Shown: positions 45,051 to 45,172 of the stretch, piece after piece
How positions within the stretch are numbered: position 1 is the stretch's first letter
Layout of the letters: each line of letters opens with the position of its first letter
Assembly (NCBI GenBank): GCA_021848365.1
Contig: JAJZUS010000002.1
Location: 124,001 to 188,000, forward strand
From: Actinomycetes bacterium
GTDB taxonomy: Bacteria; Actinomycetota; Acidimicrobiia; Acidimicrobiales; RAAP-2
DNA length: 64,000 bases
Reading direction: 5' to 3'
The notes under the pieces: model-generated
What the model was told of the DNA's origin: nothing
The model's input: only the letters and a program-made list of their open reading frames with translations
The model's database searches: none
Program-made: the position numbers and the translations under genes

Positions 45051-45075
45051 AAAAAAACCCCCGCGGGTGCGGGGG
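45051..45075 (-). terminator. Attenuator terminator upstream of leuA
   Basis: On the minus strand: CCCCCGC-ACCC-GCGGGGG followed by seven T. A 7-bp G+C stem with a 4-base loop, ending 21 bases before the leuA ATG. Located in the leader, so it would end transcription unless an alternative structure forms. Confidence 0.9.
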
Positions 45076-45079
45076 CGTC

Positions 45080-45099
45080 GGGCGAGCGGAGGCTCGCCC
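45080..45099 (-). promoter_or_regulatory. Leader hairpin between leuA leader peptide and terminator
   Basis: GGGCGAGC-CTCC-GCTCGCCC, 8-bp stem, immediately after the leader peptide stop codon, whose last base it includes. A ribosome stalled on Leu codons or terminated at the TAG would affect its folding; it is the candidate control hairpin. Confidence 0.75.
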
Positions 45100-45137
45100 T
45101 ATGTCAGCAGCAGCTCGTTGACGACGTTGGTGCTCAC
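45099..45137 (-). CDS. leuL: leuA leader peptide (attenuation)
   Basis: Twelve codons from a GTG: V-S-T-N-V-V-N-E-L-L-L-T, then TAG. Three consecutive CTG leucine codons lie just before the stop, with two valine codons earlier. A promoter (TGGACA, 16 bases, TAGACT) ends 7 nt before the GTG, so the transcript would begin at the leader start. When charged Leu-tRNA is scarce the ribosome should stall at the Leu codons and favour antitermination. Too short for similarity searching; the call rests on codon content, position and the terminator behind it. Confidence 0.85.
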   Translation of the reverse strand: MSTNVVNELLLT

Positions 45138-45144
45138 GCTGGGC

Positions 45145-45172
45145 AGTCTACCGCCGAGGACCTCCGTGTCCA
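45145..45172 (-). promoter_or_regulatory. leuA promoter
   Basis: -35 TGGACA (45167-45172), 16-base spacer, -10 TAGACT (45145-45150), then 7 nt to the leader peptide GTG. The TAGACTGCC string is shared with the ilvD promoter. Confidence 0.7.

Follow-up and report, generated by a model that had tools for sequence, protein, structure and literature searches.

The leuA gene of the window (i.e., the whole stretch of 64,000 nucleotides analysed here) is preceded by a short frame with a run of leucine codons, by a hairpin abutting the stop codon of this frame (SL1), and by a predicted intrinsic terminator. We propose that this leader is a ribosome-mediated attenuator that senses leucine codons, and in which folded SL1 opposes the terminator. 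Taken as a whole, we give this proposal an even chance of being right. The comparative evidence for the sensing step appears strong, whereas the antagonism of the terminator by folded SL1 itself is the best reading of the data and is inferred. The original prediction presented the leader as a concrete new instance. Taken as isolated, this has to be corrected: the element is a member of a class-wide family. We suggest more tentatively, with somewhat less than even confidence, that Acidimicrobiia and some other actinobacteria share a family of branched-chain attenuators free of antiterminators, in which a ribosome-gated hairpin abutting the stop codon blocks the adjacent terminator mechanically, and in which the codons swap freely while the two-hairpin body remains fixed.

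If this is true, the position of the ribosome could set intrinsic termination purely through proximity or mechanics, the hairpins not competing by pairing, and such control would be directly testable on short templates. The elements would also show where control by leucine, isoleucine, and valine is predicted in a class that is largely uncultured, and would supply a part with exchangeable codons, running from the stop as far as the T run and roughly 50–70 nt long.

Components of the leuA leader in the window

The components of the leader are listed in Table 1. A pattern scan of positions 44900–45400 found a single promoter-like site (TGGACA-16-TAGACT, 45172–45145, minus strand, with a spacer of 16 nt; mean of 0.0 in shuffled sequences) and a single terminator-like site, which is the terminator of the leuA leader (45076–45057; shuffle mean 0.2). 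Hence, the scan bears out the promoter and the G+C terminator with seven T directly before leuA that had been claimed; the T run ends 21 nt upstream of the leuA ATG at 45029. The 12-codon leader frame (GTG AGC ACC AAC GTC GTC AAC GAG CTG CTG CTG ACA TAG) also stands, but it does not quite end in three leucine codons as stated, because one threonine codon (ACA) follows leucine codons 9–11. SL1 does touch the stop codon, the G of TAG being the base with which its pairing begins. The first sensing codon starts 14 nt ahead of this first pair, which is also the commonest distance among relatives. Folding of the RNA from 45030 to 45136 gave −46 kcal/mol, against −35.07 (sd 3.47) for shuffled sequences (z −3.15), and only one of 200 shuffles was as good.

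Table 1. Features of the leuA leader and the gene it precedes, in window coordinates.
Feature	Position	Strand	Basis
−35-like hexamer TGGACA	45167–45172	−	pattern scan
−10-like hexamer TAGACT	45145–45150	−	pattern scan; 7 nt upstream of leader GTG at 45137
Leader ORF GTG...TAG, VSTNVVNELLLT*, 12 codons	45099–45137	−	sequence
Sensing Leu codons CTG CTG CTG (codons 9–11)	45105–45113	−	sequence
SL1, 8-bp hairpin GGGCGAGC-CTCC-GCTCGCCC	45080–45099	−	sequence, fold, paired changes in relatives
Linker of 4 nt, SL1 to terminator G+C stem	45076–45079	−	sequence, fold
Intrinsic terminator CCCCCGC-ACCC-GCGGGGG + T7	45075–45058 (stem-loop), 45057–45051 (T7)	−	predicted: fold, pattern scan
leuA, 2-isopropylmalate synthase, 568 aa, controlled gene	43323–45029	−	NCBIfam NF002991 and TIGR00970 above cut-off

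Rfam release 15 gave no match at the gathering threshold in the window or in 12 representative loci, and the Leu_leader family (RF00512) scored 15.9 bits in the window against a threshold of 50. In the host genome (about 1.96 Mb in three contigs) the leuA copy was the only match of our codon-free model R3 (described below), the next ones having E > 3. The frame downstream of the leader stop (45030–45098, minus strand) is open and in frame with leuA over the 69 nt to the ATG. Readthrough of the stop in the window would therefore yield a fused LeuA, an arrangement that is not general among relatives.

The claim that the transcript begins at the leader GTG received indirect support from the spacing of the −10 element. 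The motif TANNNT lies 4–15 nt ahead of an in-frame ATG or GTG in 73 of the 160 leaders with enough upstream sequence, against 3, 2, 1, and 14 when the search interval was shifted by 12, 18, 24, and 30 nt. Shine-Dalgarno-like sequences (GGAG, GAGG or AGGA) precede the start in 19 leaders of the same set. Because of the −10 spacing, we consider that the leuA leader probably starts leaderless. The spacing fits the leaderless initiation described for leuL and ilvL of Streptomyces lividans (PMC8079986).

Conservation of the element and exchange of its codons

LeuA was matched in 59 of the 61 genus genomes searched, the window's own genome included. One genome of the genus without a match (G040, 97% complete) possibly cannot make leucine. 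We compared the sequences upstream of leuA at 110 loci (80 named, 30 other); some of these loci correspond to the same genome under two names. A strict parser (leucine codons, stop, abutting hairpin, T run) recognised 92 of them, one falsely (L025). Of the other 18 loci, visual inspection showed the layout in 13, in some of them with two leucine codons; L053 is cut off but agrees, and L106 is without upstream sequence. By eye, the attenuator layout is absent upstream of leuA in L085, L096, and L107. The false case belongs to the same genus (genome G055): its leuA lacks the leucine run (VAGL*), the hairpin is more distant and the terminator weaker, and the attenuator has apparently been lost.

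Removing L025 and identical sequences left 82 leuA leaders. Leucine counts from the parser set and from the set of our covariance model R1 are partly the result of construction, because the parser needed three leucine codons and R1 contains leucine codons. The codon-free model R3, built from 52 sequences, spans only the stop codon to the T run. It found the element at 76 of the 80 named leuA loci (E ≤ 0.001), some of which had helped to build it, and missed L085, L096, L106, and L107. Among the 75 named leuA loci whose stop falls at the start of R3, leucine occupies codon −2 in 72 cases, codon −3 in 74, and codon −4 in 66 (L094, with no stop near the model start, is outside this count). The leaders of related genomes thus agree with the original prediction of leucine attenuation of leuA, which is also supported by the way codon identity follows the gene elsewhere (see below).

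Both hairpins show paired changes. In an alignment of 46 sequences from more distant relatives, both partners change in nine of the 16 pairs, six of SL1 and three of the terminator. None of 500 shuffles reached this number, and sliding the partner by one column lowered the paired cells from 96.4% to 39.8 or 50.1%. In the alignment of 35 sequences from the window's own group, both partners change in four of the 15 pairs, all of them in SL1, and six of 500 shuffles reach four. The paired changes of the terminator were seen only in the alignment of distant relatives because the terminator hardly varies in the window's own group.

R1 identified the element in 86 of 149 genomes of the class, apparently Acidimicrobiia (at least 85% complete), representing 66 of 92 genera, and R3 in 74 of 119 genomes of the class. 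Across the phylum, R1 detected the element in 17 of 149 genomes and R3 in 32 of 246; seven and 15 of these, respectively, lie outside the class, and some of the latter 15 are false. The genome searches ran with stricter filters and may have missed weak matches. Six of the 15 genomes outside the class had already been met with R1 (G210, G213, G224, G231, G238, G244). We inspected seven new loci, leaving out G209 and G228. One fits (L248, leuA, LLLT*), two precede ilvB and have branched-chain codons (L261 and L262), and four look like ordinary terminators (L260, L263, L264, L265), which is why we consider that R3 yields false matches at phylum range. In L262 (match 1501–1573) the frame contains LLLVIV and its stop would fall within SL1, a possible variant. 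The elements collected, with the window itself as L148, number 174 (168 distinct sequences); relatives share descent, and element counts are not independent events.

Second matches of R1 and the matches of R3 place the element before other genes as well: ilvB (with Leu, Val, and Ile codons), leuB (3-isopropylmalate dehydrogenase; Val and Ile), cimA (citramalate synthase; Ile-Ile-Ile), and leuS (Leu). We fetched 40 further R3 matches, of which 38 fit, the weakest being L238 with one Val and one Ile; L240 and L243 look spurious and were dropped. The 38 elements precede leuB (19), ilvB (12), and cimA (7). The last six codons of their leaders contain on average 2.0 Leu, 1.5 Val, and 0.9 Ile before ilvB; 0.05 Leu, 1.9 Val, and 2.1 Ile before leuB; and no Leu, no Val, and 3.7 Ile before cimA. 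None of 10,000 permutations of the labels matched codons and genes as well. R3 was built with 16 non-leuA elements, so that finding more elements of such types is partly by construction; the codons are outside the model. The same test on 172 leaders including leuA also gave no equal in 10,000 permutations, but many of the leuA leaders there were preselected for leucine, and the stop near the model start was chosen by branched-chain codon count (L158 was outside the test). The sensing codons occupy positions −2 to −5, the last codon usually being another one. We regard this match between codons and genes as the strongest evidence, of a comparative kind, that the leader frames are translated and sensed. 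The leaders thus have a short frame rich in end-product codons and a predicted intrinsic terminator between this frame and the gene, as expected of attenuators, and codon-specific attenuation appears well supported.

The names of the genes were checked with NCBIfam. In the first set seven of ten proteins scored above the cut-off, the truncated leuS of L142 and L146 fell just below, and L158 had none; all ten of the R3-found genes checked were above. Genes otherwise unnamed were labelled leuA by similarity to the LeuA of the window, some at just 25–29% identity. Among these, L114 was confirmed as leuA, and L130 received the label though its gene is cut off. The leuB leaders (L161, L164, L165, L205, L206, and similar ones) carry Val and Ile and hardly ever Leu, though leuB is a leucine gene; a shared operon, or isoleucine synthesis by the citramalate route, might account for these codons. 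At L158 (701–783), R1 and R3 match before an aminotransferase gene, where the leader KLTRRSNK* is without a branched-chain run.

Ribosome position, SL1 and termination

The spacing of the three parts is tight. Among the 168 distinct elements, 148 have SL1 starting at an offset of 2–4, counted from the first base of the stop codon. SL1 and the G+C stem of the terminator lie 0–8 nt apart in every one of the 168, and no more than 6 nt apart in 164, in sets obtained with models (R1 and R3) that favour close spacing; the distance is 0–6 nt in 81 leuA leaders gathered without a model, by protein similarity and the parser. To place the ribosome, we assumed that its footprint covers 13 nt, counted from the first base of the codon in the A site (PMC13236596 takes 26 nt centred on the codon). 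Under equilibrium folding of 134 leaders, a ribosome at the first sensing codon leaves SL1 with 9.6 of its 9.9 pairs; one at the last sensing codon leaves 4.0, and one at the stop 0.0. This drop makes SL1 well placed to read the position of the ribosome.

We propose the following sequence of events. RNA polymerase would begin on the leader GTG or beside it, and a ribosome would load onto the 5′ end, both steps being inferred. When charged tRNA-Leu is ample, the ribosome would reach the stop and cover the 5′ arm of SL1 (the geometry is computed, with the assumed footprint), the terminator would fold, and transcription would end. When leucine is short, the ribosome would wait at the first leucine codon, 14 nt upstream of SL1, where the computation predicts that this hairpin stays folded. 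We favour an opposition between folded SL1 and the terminator because more leuA is expected when leucine is short, and because no other structure changes as much as SL1 between stall and stop. How SL1 might act is suggested by the short gap: the terminator stem must close deep in the exit channel of the polymerase, and a stem 0–8 nt upstream would obstruct this closure, perhaps braced by the parked ribosome. In the polymerase, about 5 nt are said to lie in the exit channel and 9–10 nt in the hybrid (PMC8355165). A structured RNA beside the exit channel, put RNA, is reported to suppress termination without pairing to the terminator (PMC9378689).

The same source on the polymerase also provides what is real evidence against SL1 as an inhibitor: adjacent tandem hairpins are said to terminate as well as, or better than, one hairpin, also in vivo in M. 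smegmatis (PMC8355165). Against the model stands, too, the computed loss of SL1 pairs during a stall at the last sensing codon (just 4.0 of 9.9 left). Both points speak for a tandem-hairpin terminator in which SL1 cooperates: a stall on later codons would open SL1 and weaken termination, while a finished ribosome would leave and let both hairpins fold. We consider this unlikely, because SL1 is computed to be intact at the first codon and open at the stop, which is the wrong order unless release is very fast. Three further points count against our model. Without a ribosome SL1 would fold, and readthrough is then predicted, unlike in classical attenuators. Mutations of leader codons of leuA in Streptomyces coelicolor are described as having some effect, though not one that fits classical attenuation (cited in PMC1262725). 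Finally, the leucine run is gone in L025, a locus of the window's own genus.

Attenuation is the textbook example of RNA switching by competing pairings, and pairing with an antiterminator is the established model of leader-peptide attenuators. On this model, the stalled ribosome in our leaders would permit some part of the leader or of SL1 to pair with an arm of the terminator. In the window, the GGGCG of the SL1 5′ arm could indeed pair with the CGCCC at the start of the terminator. Such a mechanism has been proposed for the ilvB1 leader of M. tuberculosis, with sensing codons LVVI (PMC13236596), and for the ilvB-II motif of Corynebacterium (PMC10272879).

We searched for the switch by computing, co-transcriptionally, how far the 5′ arm of the terminator is sequestered before its 3′ arm exists, at the stall minus at the stop. 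The E. coli leaders of trp, leu, thr, ilv, and phe gave values from +0.61 to +0.99, and that of his 0.00 to 0.16, hisL being missed. In contrast, none of the 166 elements exceeded +0.3 with footprints of 11, 13, 15, and 17 nt, seven unusable elements being left out. Their means range from −0.16 to −0.20. With the footprint of 13 nt, 46 of the 166 fell below −0.3, in the opposite direction. We count this against our model, but read it as chance pairing of G+C-rich arms. Hence, the control hairpin of the original prediction exists as a hairpin, but a classical alternative pairing was found neither in the leader of the window nor in any of the 166 tested. A stall-formed hairpin sequestering a terminator arm, which defines the classical attenuator, was not found by this pseudoknot-free computation.

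Comparisons between genomes agree with this result. Parts of the leaders match their own terminator arms no better than those of other genomes (best z −1.8 and −1.4, several positive; L154 left out), whereas the true stems reach z −43 and −19 in the same swap test. We found no co-evolution between SL1 and the terminator, between the leucine codons and the terminator 3′ arm, or between the SL1 loop and the terminator. Most of the pairs compared with shuffles lie at the shuffle level or below it. The 3′ arms of SL1 and of the terminator are less complementary than shuffles (−6.59 vs −8.51 and −8.74). The SL1 5′ arm against the linker and terminator 5′ arm gave −7.41 (shuffles −7.90 and −8.00), and the leader codons against the terminator 3′ arm were slightly above shuffles (−8.17 vs −7.15 and −7.93). 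When the leaders were folded at equilibrium with the ribosome-covered positions masked, nearly every state contained the terminator (L080 and L097 skipped; L080 went unparsed in another set as well). We do not use this against an antiterminator, because trpL and leuL of E. coli also keep their terminator in every state. Altogether, we regard a classical antiterminator as improbable in these leaders.

We hold it equally doubtful that SL1 acts as a pause hairpin synchronising polymerase and ribosome, or by binding a protein or the polymerase, for which HK022 put RNA is a precedent (PMC9378689); the terminator would then be overcome via the state of the polymerase, not by sterics. A G-N-G-Y-C element follows SL1 in 75 of 136 elements, N being a pyrimidine in 66 of the 75 and the distance 9–14 nt in 69. 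This element resembles the consensus of hairpin-stabilised pauses. In addition, CACA occurs in or beside the SL1 loop in 31 of 120 leuA elements. Yet visual inspection did not show the G-Y-G element or the loop motif in the window or in most elements before ilvB, leuB, and cimA. We rejected the hairpin-pause motif as a general rule for this reason, and a pause by itself leaves antitermination unexplained. The CACA(T) loops of leuA leaders (e.g., L066, L089, L100) have no partner or role that we could find. Many leuA leaders outside the window's genus have a recurrent bulged pyrimidine in the terminator 5′ arm (stem-G-Y-GCC...GGC), which should weaken the stem and is possibly a pause signal.

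That there is no regulator at all, the small frame and strong terminator merely insulating leuA from upstream transcription, is very improbable, since codon identity tracks the downstream gene in the 38 elements found without codons and the sensing codons hold fixed positions. We also rejected readthrough or frameshifting into leuA as a way of opening the terminator. Frames 0, −1, and +1 are open through the terminator in 77, 74, and 71 of the 82 leuA leaders, as their high G+C explains, and many leaders have a stop-to-leuA distance that is no multiple of three.

Relation to known leaders

Leucine leaders before actinobacterial leuA are already known (PMC1262725, PMC8079986), as are ilvB attenuators with proposed antiterminators (PMC10272879, PMC13236596). 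We found no description of the two-hairpin form in the open-licence literature searched, nor one of Acidimicrobiia together with attenuation and a leader peptide; PMC2965389 and PMC13289151 yielded nothing on the subject. As far as can be seen, the two-hairpin layout is a new form of leader-peptide attenuation.

The six E. coli leaders share with our elements a leader peptide with sensing codons and a terminator before the operon. They differ in that the stall sequesters the 5′ arm of the terminator in five of the six, by computation, and in none of the elements here. The ilvB1 leader of M. tuberculosis (PMC13236596) and ilvB-II of Corynebacterium (PMC10272879) also combine a short frame containing branched-chain codons with a premature intrinsic terminator, and in the ilvB1 proposal, as in our model, a ribosome at the stop masks upstream structure (PMC13236596). 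In the accounts of both, however, terminator and antiterminator are proposed to be mutually exclusive by pairing (PMC13236596, PMC10272879), and we found no such pair.

The LEU element of other Actinobacteria has in common with our leaders a frame with a run of leucine codons upstream of leuA (PMC1262725). It is described as a pseudoknot in which the leucine codons pair with the Shine-Dalgarno box of leuA, the other elements of an attenuator being said in that account to be missing (PMC1262725). Our leaders show instead two plain hairpins and an intrinsic terminator, in pseudoknot-free foldings. The leuL1, leuL2, and ilvL leaders of S. lividans resemble ours as leaderless short frames with Leu or Leu/Val/Ile codons before leuA, leuS, and ilvBHC (PMC8079986). 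As described there, leuL2 has a hairpin followed by a U run, as here, whereas leuL1, before leuA, is presented without an intrinsic terminator, unlike here (PMC8079986). In the S. lividans peptides MRFGLLLLSCRGEGL and MRAVRLLLSEPR the leucine run lies far ahead of the stop (PMC8079986), whereas in our elements sensing codons, stop, and SL1 keep a fixed register.
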